DNA of 59,149 nucleotides, taken from contig JACNFR010000047.1 of the NCBI GenBank assembly GCA_014384555.1, positions 1 to 59,149 on the forward strand, read 5' to 3'. The notes under the pieces are model-generated. The model was not told the origin of the DNA. It did no database searches and saw nothing but the letters and a program-made list of their open reading frames with translations. Positions within the stretch are counted from its first letter, which is position 1. Every line of letters starts with the position of its first letter. Shown here one piece after another: positions 5,222-10,675 of this stretch. The position numbers and the translations under genes were made by a program. The DNA comes from Candidatus Nitrosopumilus sp. (GTDB lineage: Archaea > Thermoproteota > Nitrososphaeria > Nitrososphaerales > Nitrosopumilaceae).

Positions 5222-5569
5222 TTAACGATTAGAAAGGCTGTTTGCTTTTACAAATGCCCAAATCTTTTTAGTCATTTCACTTGGTGCAATTGCTTTCTTA
5301 CCAAATACTTGTTCTACAGTTTCAGAACGTCCTGCAAAACTGATTGCATATCCACCAAATGCTGGTTTTTTAGCTTTTGATTTAGTTGCTTTCTTTTTTG
5401 GTGCTGCTTTTCTTTTTGGTGCTGCTTTTCTTTTTGGTGCTGCTTTTCTTTTTGGTGCTGCTTTTCTTTTTGGTGCTGCTTTTCTTTTTGGTGCTGCTTT
5501 TCTTTTTGGTGCTGCTTTTCTTTTTGGTGCAGCTTTTCTTTTTGTTGTAGTTTTCTTTTTTATTGCCAA
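5222..5569 (-). CDS. Lys/Ala/Pro-repeat basic protein with C-terminal half-SWIB-like motif
   Basis: 115-aa, extremely basic protein. Residues 10-60 are tandem copies of the hexapeptide KRKAAP, a histone-H1-like tail expected to bind DNA non-specifically. The final 30 residues (VEQVFGKKAIAPSEMTKKIW, then AFVKANSL) resemble the first half of a SWIB/MDM2 domain. It stands alone, with its own upstream gap, between the hemerythrin unit and the riboflavin cluster. It is likely a nucleoid protein. Repeat number may vary between strains because the encoding DNA is a perfect 18-bp tandem repeat. Confidence 0.78.
   Translation of the reverse strand: MAIKKKTTTKRKAAPKRKAAPKRKAAPKRKAAPKRKAAPKRKAAPKRKAAPKRKAAPKKKATKSKAKKPAFGGYAISFAGRSETVEQVFGKKAIAPSEMTKKIWAFVKANSLSNR
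5395..5545. repeat. 18-bp in-frame tandem repeat coding for KRKAAP
   Basis: About eight near-perfect copies of an 18-base unit (GCTGCTTTTCTTTTTGGT on the plus strand) lie inside the basic-protein gene. Copies are almost identical at silent positions, which points to recent slippage expansion. Whole-unit gains or losses keep the frame. Confidence 0.9.
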
Positions 5570-5605: not shown

Positions 5606-6262
5606 TTACACTTTTAGATAATTCAATACAAGATGATTTTTGAGCCTCTTGATTGATTTAAGTTGTAGTTTAGGGGATTTTGAAATATTATCAAATCCAT
5701 TACCCTGCACTAATGAAATTGCATCTTTTCCTCCAATTAGAAAAGGTGAAAGAGTGATTATTAATTCATCAAAAAGATTTTGCTTTATGAATTCCCAATT
5801 TACAGTTCCTCCACCTTCAATTAGAATTGTTGTAATTTTTTTCTCTGAAAGTTTTTTTAATAATAATTTTATATTTACAGATTTTTCTCCTACACTAATT
5901 ATTTCAACAGGAAAATTATTTAGTTTTTGAAGATTGGATTTTGTAATTTGTTTAGATACTGCAATAATGGTAGGAACTTTGTTGGATGTTTGTAATATTT
6001 TTGATTTTACTGAAATTTCGCCTTTAGAATCAAGTATTATTCTGATAGGATTTTTTCCTCTAGCATGACGTACAGTCAATAAAGGATTGTCTTTCATCGC
6101 AGTATTTTTTCCAATTAGTATTCCATCAACTTTAGTTCTAAGTTTATGAAGTCTAACAAAATCTTCAGTAGAAGATAGTTTAGAATTACCGGTTCTAGTA
6201 GCAATCTTTCCATCAATAGATATTGCTGCACTTAGAATAACATATGGTTTAGATTTTTCCAT
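5606..6262 (-). CDS. arfC: 2,5-diamino-6-ribosylamino-pyrimidinone 5'-phosphate reductase (ArfC/RIB7 type)
   Basis: 218-aa protein matching the C-terminal (reductase) domain of RibD. It has N-terminal YVILSAAISIDGKIATRTGN, the RTKVDGILIGKNTAMKDNP NADPH-binding stretch, and C-terminal ILIEGGGTVN. It reduces the ribosyl side chain of the riboflavin precursor to ribityl. As in other archaea and fungi it stands alone, without the zinc deaminase domain of bacterial RibD. It overlaps the upstream amidohydrolase by 14 bases and is the last gene of the riboflavin operon. Confidence 0.92.
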   Translation of the reverse strand: MEKSKPYVILSAAISIDGKIATRTGNSKLSSTEDFVRLHKLRTKVDGILIGKNTAMKDNPLLTVRHARGKNPIRIILDSKGEISVKSKILQTSNKVPTIIAVSKQITKSNLQKLNNFPVEIISVGEKSVNIKLLLKKLSEKKITTILIEGGGTVNWEFIKQNLFDELIITLSPFLIGGKDAISLVQGNGFDNISKSPKLQLKSIKRLKNHLVLNYLKV

Positions 6263-7439
6263 GTACTATTTTCCCTCCAATCATTACAGCCTTAATTGTA
6301 GATTCAGATGCTCTATGAACAATAGATGCATGTGGATTGTGCATTGGTTCTAGATCTAATGCATGTTTATCTAGAAAAATACAATCAGCTAGATATCCAG
6401 ATTTAATTATTCCAATATTTTTATTTATGATTTTTCCACCATTTACAGTAGCCATCTTAAGAATCTCTTTTGGTTCAATTCTTTTTTTGTGTAGTCCCAT
6501 AGTTACTTTCCAAATAAAATCCATTTCTCTAAACATATCTGGTGAGTTAATCATCACATTATCTGTGCCTAATCCTATTGTACAACCAGATTTTTGCATT
6601 AATTCAATGTCAGGAATTCCTTCTGCAAGGGATGAATTGGCTCTTGGACAAATTACAATGCCTCGAGTTTTTTTAGATGCTAAATGAAGATCAGATTTTG
6701 ATGCATATGTCATATGAATAAGAAAGTCAGGCTTTAGAGATAAGGCCCTTATTGTTTCAGATTTTCCAGTCATTTTTTTTGATTTGGTAATACTTTGTTT
6801 AGTTTCAGATGAATGGATTGCTCGAATTTTTGATACTTTAGAATAGTAATTCAACACAGAGTTACTATTTTCATTTGCACCACTGACACCTATGCCATCA
6901 CATTTTCTGAGTAATGATAGGAATTCAGCGGATTTTGTGCTAGGAAATGATGAATTTTTTTTAATTTCTTTAGGATCCTGATAAAATTCCATGCGCCCTA
7001 AAATTATGGAACGTATTGGAATATCAGATGTTACTTTTTTTAGTAAAGTTACTCCATCTAATCCACCCTCTCTGAAATCAACAAAAGTGGTAATTCCTTT
7101 TCTAATCATAGAATAACATGTATTTTTCATAAAATTTCCGAGATGCTCATTTGAAGTGTTTTTGAGGATTTTTGATTTAGCACCAAACACAGGATGAATC
7201 TTTTGATTGACTGTTTTATCTAAAGAAATGTCTTTTCCAATTGAATCTCCAACATGTGTATGTGCATTAATGAATCCAGGAATCATTAGTAATCCTTCAC
7301 AATCTATAGATTCTTCTTTTAGATTTGGTTTAATTTTTGATTGGATTTTTTTAAATTTATCATTTTGAATTTGTACATCAGTATTTAAAATAAAATCTAA
7401 ATCTTGTCCGGATAATATGCTGAGATTTTTAATTAACAT
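6249..7439 (-). CDS. Amidohydrolase-superfamily deaminase (COG0402-like) inside the riboflavin operon
   Basis: 396-aa metal-dependent amidohydrolase. Visible metal and catalytic residues are His60-x-His62 (NAHTHVGD), His209-x-x-Glu212 (IHSSET), His242 (IHMTYAS) and Asp293 (LGTDNVMINSPD). The HxxE pair, in which Glu shuttles a proton, is typical of deaminases such as cytosine or S-adenosylhomocysteine deaminase. The gene overlaps arfA upstream (7 bases) and arfC downstream (14 bases), so it belongs to the riboflavin transcript. Archaeal riboflavin synthesis needs a deaminase after ArfC that has had no assigned gene as far as I know. This is a strong positional candidate; nucleoside deamination is the alternative. 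Confidence 0.88.
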   Translation of the reverse strand: MLIKNLSILSGQDLDFILNTDVQIQNDKFKKIQSKIKPNLKEESIDCEGLLMIPGFINAHTHVGDSIGKDISLDKTVNQKIHPVFGAKSKILKNTSNEHLGNFMKNTCYSMIRKGITTFVDFREGGLDGVTLLKKVTSDIPIRSIILGRMEFYQDPKEIKKNSSFPSTKSAEFLSLLRKCDGIGVSGANENSNSVLNYYSKVSKIRAIHSSETKQSITKSKKMTGKSETIRALSLKPDFLIHMTYASKSDLHLASKKTRGIVICPRANSSLAEGIPDIELMQKSGCTIGLGTDNVMINSPDMFREMDFIWKVTMGLHKKRIEPKEILKMATVNGGKIINKNIGIIKSGYLADCIFLDKHALDLEPMHNPHASIVHRASESTIKAVMIGGKIVHGKI

Positions 7440-8185
7440 GATAATTCATAAACTTCAGGTTTTTCTTTGCCTGAATCTCGAATTTCCCTTATAGTATCAA
7501 GGGATTTTGTGGCTAATTTTACTGCCTCTCTACCTGTGTTTGCATTACCTATCCCACAATTCAAAGAAATTTTATCATTATTTTTTATCATATTGATAAA
7601 AGACTGTACAGATTTTTTTGCTTCATCATCTGATACTACCATAAAATTATCACCACCCATAAAAAATGTAAGAGAATTTTTTTCTAAAAAGAATTTAGAC
7701 ATTTTTGAATATAACTCAAAGATTACTGATGAAATTTCATATGGAGAATCAGTTTTTCTTCTGGAAGTAAGATCATCTACATCCAAGTGCATTATAGAGA
7801 TTTTGGAATCAGATTTCCCATTAATAAAACCAAAAATATTATGTTCTGTGTTTAAAATGATTTTATTTTTCTTTCCTTCATATGCTTTCAAGTTTGCATC
7901 AAATGGAGTATTTCCAATACCAATTGATATGGTTAATCTAATGTCAAATAATTTTTCAAGTGCTTCTTGAATTTCAATATGATCTTCTAAATCTAAACCA
8001 TTTGAAACCACAAAAAATTCATCAGCCCTGTTTAGAAAAACTATGCAATTCTTTTCAGAAAATAATTTTTGCACTTCTTTGTAGAGTGAAGCTTGAAGCA
8101 TTTGGAGTTCATGTTCTCTATCACTGCCCAAAGTCAAGGTCCAAGGACCATATTCTGTAATTTTTAAGATGCTTAGTTGAATCAT
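7433..8185 (-). CDS. arfA: GTP cyclohydrolase III (GTP cyclohydrolase IIa, ArfA)
   Basis: 250-aa archaeal enzyme that opens GTP to the formamidopyrimidine (FAPy) nucleotide, the first step toward riboflavin and F420. The N-terminus MIQLSILKITEYGPWTLTLG is the family signature. Two duplicated GGDEF-like halves are visible, each ending in a glycine motif (SIGIGNTPFDAN; NCGIGNANTGREA), with GGDNFMVVSDDE in the second. It overlaps ribH by 4 bases (ATGA type) and the amidohydrolase by 7 bases. Confidence 0.93.
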   Translation of the reverse strand: MIQLSILKITEYGPWTLTLGSDREHELQMLQASLYKEVQKLFSEKNCIVFLNRADEFFVVSNGLDLEDHIEIQEALEKLFDIRLTISIGIGNTPFDANLKAYEGKKNKIILNTEHNIFGFINGKSDSKISIMHLDVDDLTSRRKTDSPYEISSVIFELYSKMSKFFLEKNSLTFFMGGDNFMVVSDDEAKKSVQSFINMIKNNDKISLNCGIGNANTGREAVKLATKSLDTIREIRDSGKEKPEVYELSC

Positions 8186-8598
8186 TTCTGTATCCTTTTT
8201 AATTCATCAGATATTTTTACAACAGCTTCTACAGCACGTTCTGCAACGGGTCTAATTCTAGCATAGGCATGTCTTTCTTGCATTCCAGGACCAGAAATTC
8301 CTAAAGAAACAGGTTTTTGATATTTTAATGATAAATCAGTTAGAGCCTTGGCTACTGCATGTGATATCACCTCATCATGTTTGGTTTGACCTTTAATGAT
8401 AGCACCCAAAGTAACTACTGCGTCAATGTCTTTTTTATTCAATAGTGAATCCACAATGATAGGCATGTCATAGGCTCCAGGAACCATAGAAATATGTGAG
8501 ATTTTTAATTTCATAAAATCTGCTTTTTCTTTGGCTATAGCAAGCATCCTAGATGTCACTTCTTCATTAAATTCCGAAACTACTATTGCAATATTCAA
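8182..8598 (-). CDS. ribH: 6,7-dimethyl-8-ribityllumazine synthase
   Basis: 138-aa enzyme that condenses 3,4-dihydroxy-2-butanone 4-phosphate with the ribitylamino-pyrimidinedione. Motifs are N-terminal IAIVVSEFNEEVT (aromatic position), VPGAYDMP, and GAIIKGQTKHDEVISHAV with the catalytic His (KHDE). It lies 2 bases after ribB and overlaps arfA by 4. Length fits an archaeal lumazine synthase. Confidence 0.95.
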   Translation of the reverse strand: MNIAIVVSEFNEEVTSRMLAIAKEKADFMKLKISHISMVPGAYDMPIIVDSLLNKKDIDAVVTLGAIIKGQTKHDEVISHAVAKALTDLSLKYQKPVSLGISGPGMQERHAYARIRPVAERAVEAVVKISDELKRIQK

Positions 8599-8600
8599 AA

Positions 8601-9266
8601 CTATTTCACCTTGGCGTATTCTAAAAGCTCTTTTCCATCAATTAATGGAATTCCATTTTGCTTTGCAAATTTTTCAGCCTTTTCCACAGACAATGCAGAA
8701 TAAGTTTCAGCATCCATCATTTCACATATAGCAGTTACAGGAGTCAAACCTGCAATCTGTGCTAAATAAACAGACATTTCTGTATGTCCCTGACGGGCAG
8801 CTAACAAACCTTTGGATGCAATCAATAATGGAACATGCCCTGGAGTTTTAAAAGATGATGCAAATTTTTTCTGTTTGTTTTCAACATTGCAGAGTTTTGC
8901 CATCTCATTAATTGTTAGTGACCTATCTTTATCAGTAATTCCGGTGTATGTCTGATAATGATTGATTGATAGTGAAAAAGTAGGGTGATCACCATAAGGT
9001 GCCAAGCCCATAATCATTTCTTTATTTGAGATAGAAGATTCTGAAAGAATTTCATGCATATATTGTAAATCTAAAGACTTTGCAAGATTGTTATCAATTG
9101 CAATACATAGTAATCCACCAGCATTTTGACGCATTCTTGCAACATGCTCAGGTGTTACAAATTCTGCAGCTACAACCATATCAATTTCATTTTCTCTTCC
9201 AGCAGAATCAAATAATAAAACAAATTCTCCACGCTTCAAAGATTGTAAAGCAGATTCAAGTGACAT
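8601..9266 (-). CDS. ribB: 3,4-dihydroxy-2-butanone 4-phosphate synthase
   Basis: 221-aa enzyme that makes the four-carbon unit of riboflavin from ribulose 5-phosphate. Visible motifs are GRENEIDMVVAAEF (acidic metal-site region), TPGHVPLL and RQGHTEMSV. It is monofunctional, without the GTP cyclohydrolase II domain of many bacterial fusions, matching the separate arfA here. A box A (TTTATAAT on the minus strand, 9288-9295) lies about 26 bases before the ATG. It is therefore probably leaderless and the first gene of ribB-ribH-arfA-amidohydrolase-arfC. Confidence 0.95.
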   Translation of the reverse strand: MSLESALQSLKRGEFVLLFDSAGRENEIDMVVAAEFVTPEHVARMRQNAGGLLCIAIDNNLAKSLDLQYMHEILSESSISNKEMIMGLAPYGDHPTFSLSINHYQTYTGITDKDRSLTINEMAKLCNVENKQKKFASSFKTPGHVPLLIASKGLLAARQGHTEMSVYLAQIAGLTPVTAICEMMDAETYSALSVEKAEKFAKQNGIPLIDGKELLEYAKVK

Positions 9267-9343: not shown

Positions 9344-9928
9344 TTATTTCAGAATATATTTTCCGAGGATGTCAGTTTCAATATTAACTTTATCGCCTAC
9401 TTTTTTGGTATGAAAATTTGTCACTTCAATAGTATGAGGAATTAATGATACTGATGCAAGAGAATTTTTGATATCAACCACAGTTAAACTAATTCCATCT
9501 ATTGCAATAGAACCTTTTTTCACAACGAATTTTGATAATTTTTTGGGAACTTCAAACCAAACTTGTACTTCTTTTGGTTTTTTTAGAATTTTTTTAATTA
9601 TTCCCACACCATCAACATGTCCTAAAACAAAATGACCTTCTAATCGATCACCTGCTTTTAAACTGCGTTCAATATTTACAATTCCTCCAACTTTTAGATT
9701 GCCAAGATCTGTTTTTTTGGTGGTTTCTTCAATCATTTCAAAAAGACAATTAGATTTTGAAAGTTTTGTTGCAGTTAGACAAACTCCATTTAGAGCAACA
9801 CTTTGCCCAATTTTTAATCCCTTTGCATGTTTTCCTAAATTTATTGACATTTCAATTGCACTTCTATTCTTAGTGTTTTTAGAAATTTTTTCTACCTTAC
9901 CAACTCCCTCAACTATTCCAGTAAACAT
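9344..9928 (-). CDS. ribE: Riboflavin synthase, bacterial (RibE, alpha-subunit) type
   Basis: Dismutates two lumazines into riboflavin. The start MFTGIVEG is the invariant N-terminus of the family. A box A (about 9951-9959) lies near 26 bases before it, so I chose the ATG at 9928 rather than one 15 bases upstream. The 194-aa protein shows the duplicated beta-barrel domains: GQSVALNGVCLTAT in the first, GSIAIDGISLTVVD in the second, and GHFVLGHVDGVG between them. This is the bacterial/eukaryotic enzyme, not the lumazine-synthase-like archaeal RibC. It has its own promoter and leads the riboflavin cluster. Confidence 0.95.
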   Translation of the reverse strand: MFTGIVEGVGKVEKISKNTKNRSAIEMSINLGKHAKGLKIGQSVALNGVCLTATKLSKSNCLFEMIEETTKKTDLGNLKVGGIVNIERSLKAGDRLEGHFVLGHVDGVGIIKKILKKPKEVQVWFEVPKKLSKFVVKKGSIAIDGISLTVVDIKNSLASVSLIPHTIEVTNFHTKKVGDKVNIETDILGKYILK

Positions 9929-9973
9929 TATGGATTCTATCATGTTTGTCTATAAAATTATTTAGATAATATG

Positions 9974-10675
9974 TTATTTGTTAGATTTTTCAAATTCATC
10001 TTGACAAAATTGATGAAATACGGAACATTTGTTTTCTTTGGCATCATTTTTGATTTTTTCCATGTCTTTGTTAAGAACACCTTGAGCAGCTAAAAATGCA
10101 TCATCAGATATCCCTAATTTTTCAAACAATCTAGATTTAGCAATGGGTAATTCTTTTAATTTTGAATCAATTGTTTGGGCCATGTCATAATAGATTATTG
10201 CGTCTTTGTATTTTCCAAGATGGCTTAAAGAAATTGCTTTATTCATTAGTGCAGTAATATCATTTGGATCTATAACTAGAGCTGTATCATAACATTCCAA
10301 AGCATCTTGATGACGATTTAATTCATTAAGTGACAAGCCCATGCTGTTTAGAGCCCAAATATCTTTTGAATCAACGGAAAGGATTTTTTGGCATAATTCT
10401 AGGACTTGATCATATTTTTTTAGATTTTCTAGGGCATAGATTTTATTTTTTAGTGCATAAGTATCTGAATTTTTAATTTCTAGAACCTTATTGCAATAAA
10501 CTATTGCCTCATCAAATTTTTTCAAATAAATTAAAGATAGTGAGATATTTTGTAAAGCAACCATATCATTTGGGATTTTTTCTAGTAAATTTTTACAATA
10601 TTCATACATCTCATCATATTTTTGAGCATTAAACATCCTGGTTATGACATTTGAAGGATCAAGAAGATCAACCAT
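9974..10675 (-). CDS. TPR repeat protein
   Basis: 233-aa protein built of at least five 34-residue tetratricopeptide repeats, for example AIVYCNKVLEIKNSDTYALK and ALECYDTALVIDPNDITALM, from about residue 20 to 185. A charged tail with Cys and His residues follows. TPRs are protein-docking modules and the partner is unknown. No signal peptide or membrane segment is seen. It lies 45 bases upstream of ribE on the same strand, but ribE has its own promoter. Confidence 0.85.
   Translation of the reverse strand: MVDLLDPSNVITRMFNAQKYDEMYEYCKNLLEKIPNDMVALQNISLSLIYLKKFDEAIVYCNKVLEIKNSDTYALKNKIYALENLKKYDQVLELCQKILSVDSKDIWALNSMGLSLNELNRHQDALECYDTALVIDPNDITALMNKAISLSHLGKYKDAIIYYDMAQTIDSKLKELPIAKSRLFEKLGISDDAFLAAQGVLNKDMEKIKNDAKENKCSVFHQFCQDEFEKSNK

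Follow-up and report, generated by a model that had tools for sequence, protein, structure and literature searches.

The deaminase step of archaeal riboflavin and F420 synthesis is an unfilled position, and the locus described here raises the question of whether an amidohydrolase encoded within a riboflavin operon occupies it. The window, that is, the whole stretch of 59,149 nucleotides analyzed, comes from Candidatus Nitrosopumilus sp., and its compact, overlapping operon makes this step testable in abundant ammonia oxidizers. According to Graupner et al. 2002, as cited in PMC8305020, archaea reduce before they deaminate. The original prediction offered the amidohydrolase (AH) as the missing deaminase and knew of no gene assigned to this role. 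On the latter point it has to be corrected, as Rodionova et al. 2017, according to Table 6 of PMC8305020, predicted MJ0699/HVO_2483 for a gap in the riboflavin pathway. The relevant part of that source lists an arfB candidate (HVO_1235) separately and still carries the phosphatase (EC 3.1.3.104) as an open gap; because these two functions are entered separately there, MJ0699/HVO_2483 would by elimination be the deaminase candidate. Neither experimental proof for this prediction nor a published demonstration of deaminase activity in the AH family was found in the literature searched. Like MJ0699/HVO_2483, AH is a candidate for filling a gap in the riboflavin synthesis of archaea; what sets it apart is that it comes from Nitrososphaeria and belongs to a complete operon of overlapping genes. 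The deaminase idea itself is not new, and the AH of the window is most fittingly described as a well-supported representative of a family with a predicted function.

AH lies on the minus strand at 6249..7439 and, in the list of open reading frames of the window, starts with ATG and encodes 396 amino acids. It is a COG0402-type amidohydrolase (NF005552/PRK07213) and the proposed 2,5-diamino-6-(ribitylamino)-4(3H)-pyrimidinone 5'-phosphate deaminase. The gene order is ribE-ribB-ribH-arfA-AH-arfC, with every gene on the minus strand: ribE (9344..9943; NF006767/TIGR00187) for a riboflavin synthase of the bacterial type with two lumazine domains, ribB (8601..9266; TIGR00506) for DHBP synthase, ribH (8182..8598; TIGR00114) for lumazine synthase, arfA (7433..8185; PF05165 GCH_III, 168 bits) for GTP cyclohydrolase III, and arfC (5606..6262; TIGR01508, 201.5 bits against a cut-off of 186), whose product consists of the reductase domain alone and carries no deaminase domain. 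As originally described, AH overlaps its neighbors at both ends, sharing 7 nt with arfA (7433..7439, minus strand) and 14 nt with arfC (6249..6262, minus strand).

Both overlaps are conserved in 80 related genome loci, the first in 80/80 and the second in 77/80. Among the same loci, arfA stands immediately 5' of AH in all 78 and arfC immediately 3' in all 74 with enough contig, and the complete ribE-ribB-ribH-arfA-AH-arfC set was found in 70/70. With neighbors and overlaps conserved in this way, the gene arrangement around AH is more than chance, and we infer from the 7-nt overlap that arfA and AH may be translationally coupled. Folding of the RNA just 5' of the operon (9944-10000) gave no structure (z = 0.67). 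Just 3' of arfC, at 5222-5569, lies an open reading frame of 115 amino acids that is Lys/Ala-rich and histone H1-like and is based on an 18-bp repeat (AAPKRK), of which it has about 9.7 copies.

What kind of enzyme AH may be is indicated by its family and its active-site residues. AH matched NF005552 (PRK07213, "chlorohydrolase") with 333.2 bits, above the curated cut-off of 294, and no second match to this family was found in the host genome. Its domain matches are to Amidohydro_1/3 only, with 126 bits to PF01979 (Amidohydro_1) over residues 52-392. The HxH, HxxE, His and Asp set on which the original prediction relied is present as H60xH62, H209xxE212, H242 and D293-N294, and each of these residues is unchanged across 31 diverse relatives; H60, H62, H209, E212, H242 and D293 are also found in 48/48 members of a wider family set that includes relatives down to 21% identity. 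At the level of sequence, these residues confirmed the assignment of AH to the COG0402-type, mononuclear-metal deaminase class of the amidohydrolase superfamily. MJ0699, which we take to be an NF005552 member, very likely belongs to the same family as AH. Haloarchaeal plasmid proteins also have NF005552 as their best family and contain all of the signature residues, with scores of 245-270 bits that fall below the 294 cut-off. While the family name "chlorohydrolase" implies a dechlorinase, the context of AH is that of a riboflavin/F420 deaminase.

Structure modeling pointed to the same class. The AlphaFold model, made from an alignment of 45 close relatives, has a pLDDT of 70, with loops 67-87, 294-298 and 361-384 below 50, and these loops hold or border some of the signature residues. 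The best Foldseek matches of the model were all of the COG0402 deaminase class, with E values down to 1e-19, and included guanine and adenosine deaminases, triazine hydrolases and the isocytosine-specific deaminase Vcz (7ww2, 8is4). The substrate proposed for AH contains a 2-amino-4-oxo-pyrimidine ring, and it is from this ring that isocytosine and guanine deaminases take off the amino group. Vcz resembles AH in fold and metal-site class and acts on this same core; however, the two are about 18-19% identical when structurally aligned, the substrate of Vcz is a free base, and we know of no pathway link for it.

Compared to its paralogues, the AH family possesses a distinct set of residues. D65, K88, E124 and N294 occur in 48/48 family members and are absent or almost absent from the paralogues (one of which has Glu at position 124), and R266 and R376, found in 45/48 members, are likewise family-specific. 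Position 88 bears on the idea that AH is an adenosine-type deaminase of the DadD-like kind, acting on SAH, MTA or 5'-deoxyadenosine and residing in the operon incidentally. By profile, the closest solved relative of AH is TM0936 (1p1m, 2plm; 134 bits), which shares the catalytic set and which we take to be an MTA/SAH deaminase. Furthermore, AH is the sole NF005552 match of its genome, and an AdoHcyase-family protein was found in 12/12 genomes tested, the host included; in principle, the host protein could be an S-inosylhomocysteine hydrolase that needs such a deaminase. However, Glu84 of TM0936, which presumably contacts the nucleoside ribose, aligns with K88, so that this mark of MTA/SAH deaminases was not found in AH; Lys stands at this position in all 48 members and Glu/Asp in 12/13 paralogues, and D65, E124, N294, R266 and R376 also set the AH family apart from TM0936. 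In addition, separate SAH/MTA-deaminase-like paralogues, which form a clade of their own (99% SH-aLRT), are present in genomes such as G173, G244, G088 and G109, and the one in G109 lies beside an AdoHcyase-family gene. The genes with which AH co-occurs are those of riboflavin synthesis. With its separate paralogue clade and K88 against it, an adenosine-type activity is disfavored, and we consider it very unlikely.

The co-occurrence was determined in 300 genomes of Thermoproteota (in the GTDB sense, as inferred from the families seen). AH was searched with a profile of 31 AH sequences, on which family members scored 173 bits or more and the paralogues, mostly longer proteins, 170 bits or less. 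RibB (PF00926) was found in 111 of the 300 genomes, and 110 had a GCH III that exceeded the cut-off; AH was present in 110/111 and 109/110 of these, respectively. The sole exception, G074, has a divergent AH copy of 155 bits that a tree places inside the AH family. Conversely, AH without RibB was seen only in G019, G103, G109 and G234, the last of these genomes being 62% complete and AH in G103 lying at a contig end. The co-occurrence gave a Fisher p of ~1e-75, a value that ignores the shared descent of the genomes. Counting against the deaminase role, good ArfC homologues occur without AH in some genomes, among them G160, G115, G080 and G094 (L164); GCH III and RibB are also absent there. Apparent second copies of GCH III, which may stem from duplication or from contamination, at G068:C9:5396-6860 (with a second RibB as well) and G245:C31:239-934, are not accompanied by a second AH.

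In bacteria, the N-terminal domain of RibD removes the same 2-amino group. This domain is unrelated to AH, as it has a cytidine-deaminase fold, and no domain of that fold was found in AH. The original prediction expected AH to accompany the riboflavin genes in genomes that lack a RibD-type deaminase, and the near one-to-one pattern agreed with this; a bifunctional RibD (deaminase fusion) exceeded the family cut-off in none of the 300 genomes. The good ArfC matches in these genomes covered the reductase half and nothing more. No PF00383 protein at all was found in the RibB-bearing genomes G197, G088, G173, G067, G125, G095 and G250, and the only one of the host genome is ComEB/dCMP-deaminase-like.

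Another explanation would leave the true deaminase elsewhere and give AH a role in repair or salvage of other pyrimidine or flavin-related compounds, such as isocytosine, FAPy-derived compounds or damaged intermediates. COG0402 enzymes are promiscuous, and the nearest folds of AH, which include isocytosine, guanine and triazine hydrolases, are compatible with such an activity. An accessory role would, however, not be expected to produce so close a correspondence with RibB across 111 genomes, nor to retain AH in cofG-cofH operons that are found without RibB. We therefore regard this explanation as improbable to a high degree and favor AH as the deaminase of the pathway.

The neighborhoods of AH in other lineages bear on the same issue. 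For 16 of the 18 AH-bearing families, AH is linked to riboflavin/F420 pathway genes in at least one genome; the families without a seen linkage are f24 and f9, the latter represented by one 3.7-kb contig. Orthologues are thus found mainly within such loci rather than mostly outside them, in keeping with the original prediction. On the other side, AH lies away from pathway genes in G277, G060, G113, G282, G137 and the inspected f24 genome loci. Beyond the ammonia oxidizers, the arrangements vary: ribB-x-ribH-arfA-AH in f21, arfC-arfA-ribB-x-ribH-AH with a convergent creatininase gene in f18, AH divergent from ribB-x-ribH-arfA in f5, AH-arfC-creatininase in G182, arfC-AH in f35, AH-arfC in f30 and f53, arfA-AH in G095, and ribB-x-ribH-AH in G224; in G286, AH is 2.9 kb from arfC. 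Whereas the window encodes a bacterial-type RibE, other Thermoproteota operons have, between ribB and ribH, an unassigned open reading frame of about 155 amino acids (L221:916-1383), probably the archaeal RibC.

These arrangements also bear on the earlier suggestion that AH might instead substitute for ArfB, hydrolyzing the formamide of the ArfA product (the FAPy nucleotide). AH lies directly 3' of arfA and overlaps it, and, as had been noted, the operon of the window contains no creatininase-type ArfB. This absence does not extend to the genome, in which a separate gene at G000:C60:4087-4725 encodes a creatininase-family protein (PF02633, 169 bits). A protein of this family was found in 44/50 genomes surveyed, and in G182, G020, G208 and G226 creatininase and AH share one cluster, which places both functions side by side. 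Furthermore, AH has the active-site set of COG0402 deaminases, and no PF02633 creatininase domain was found in it. In G109 and G019, AH accompanies arfC-cofG-cofH even though neither GCH III nor GCH II was found. The substitution for ArfB was therefore rejected, and we judge it extremely unlikely.

The latter two genomes carry AH-arfC-cofG-cofH (L161:8556-12772 and L162:8744-13031, with TIGR03550/TIGR03551 over cut-off), and RibB was also not found in them. The substrate of CofH is 5-amino-6-ribitylaminouracil, which is likewise a riboflavin precursor (PMC8498797). Because AH stands with arfC, cofG and cofH in two lineages without RibB, it would serve the common route to this compound. Between ArfC and CofH, the remaining steps are deamination and dephosphorylation, and since AH is of the deaminase class, the deamination step would fall to it. 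Displacement by GCH II (RibA) in lineages without GCH III was considered and rejected, as PF00925 was absent from all 50 genomes tested; G109 and G019 apparently make the F0/F420 precursor without a known GTP-opening enzyme.

Taken together, operon, phyletic distribution, neighborhood pattern and family-specific residues give good support to AH as the missing deaminase of archaeal riboflavin and F420 synthesis, a predicted activity to which we assign a probability of about 0.86. The main proposal of the original prediction thus gained support from the linkage to riboflavin loci, the close co-occurrence, the lack of a RibD fusion in the genomes surveyed and the missing adenosine-type glutamate. 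AH would be a hydrolytic deaminase that depends on a metal, within the COG0402/TRZ-ATZ class, and would take the 2-amino group off the isocytosine ring in the product of ArfC, 2,5-diamino-6-ribitylamino-4(3H)-pyrimidinone 5'-phosphate or possibly its dephosphorylated form. The product would be 5-amino-6-ribitylaminouracil (5'-phosphate), the common precursor of riboflavin and the deazaflavin F0/F420. One metal bound by H60, H62, H209 and D293 may activate water, with E212 and H242 as the putative acid/base pair, and the ring and ribityl phosphate may be read by K88, R266, R376, D65, E124 and N294. Of these, K88, R266 and R376 are candidate phosphate readers that are family-specific, and the model is of low confidence in its active-site loops.

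If the activity is confirmed, the "chlorohydrolase" family, present in every RibB-bearing Thermoproteota genome sampled (in one as a divergent copy), would be re-annotated, and Archaea and Bacteria would turn out to perform one and the same deamination with unrelated folds that each had recruited. A wider proposal, which we put forward tentatively and hold to be somewhat short of probable, is that AH, as a deaminase dedicated to the 2-amino-pyrimidinone (ribityl phosphate), had a single, early origin in Archaea, where it would be the general equivalent of the N-terminal domain of bacterial RibD and would supply both flavin and F420 synthesis. In the AH-arfC-cofG-cofH lineages that lack a known GTP cyclohydrolase, it would work with some other initial, GTP-opening enzyme.

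A further arrangement, cofH-AH-HAD phosphatase, was observed in G234. The HAD-family phosphatase gene (PF00702; L163:7766-8347) lies about 10 bp 3' of AH, with cofH on the 5' side. Promiscuous ARAPDP phosphatases known from other organisms are HAD enzymes (PMC12051542), and in this lineage the protein encoded at L163:7766-8347 is a candidate for the phosphatase (EC 3.1.3.104) that is still missing.
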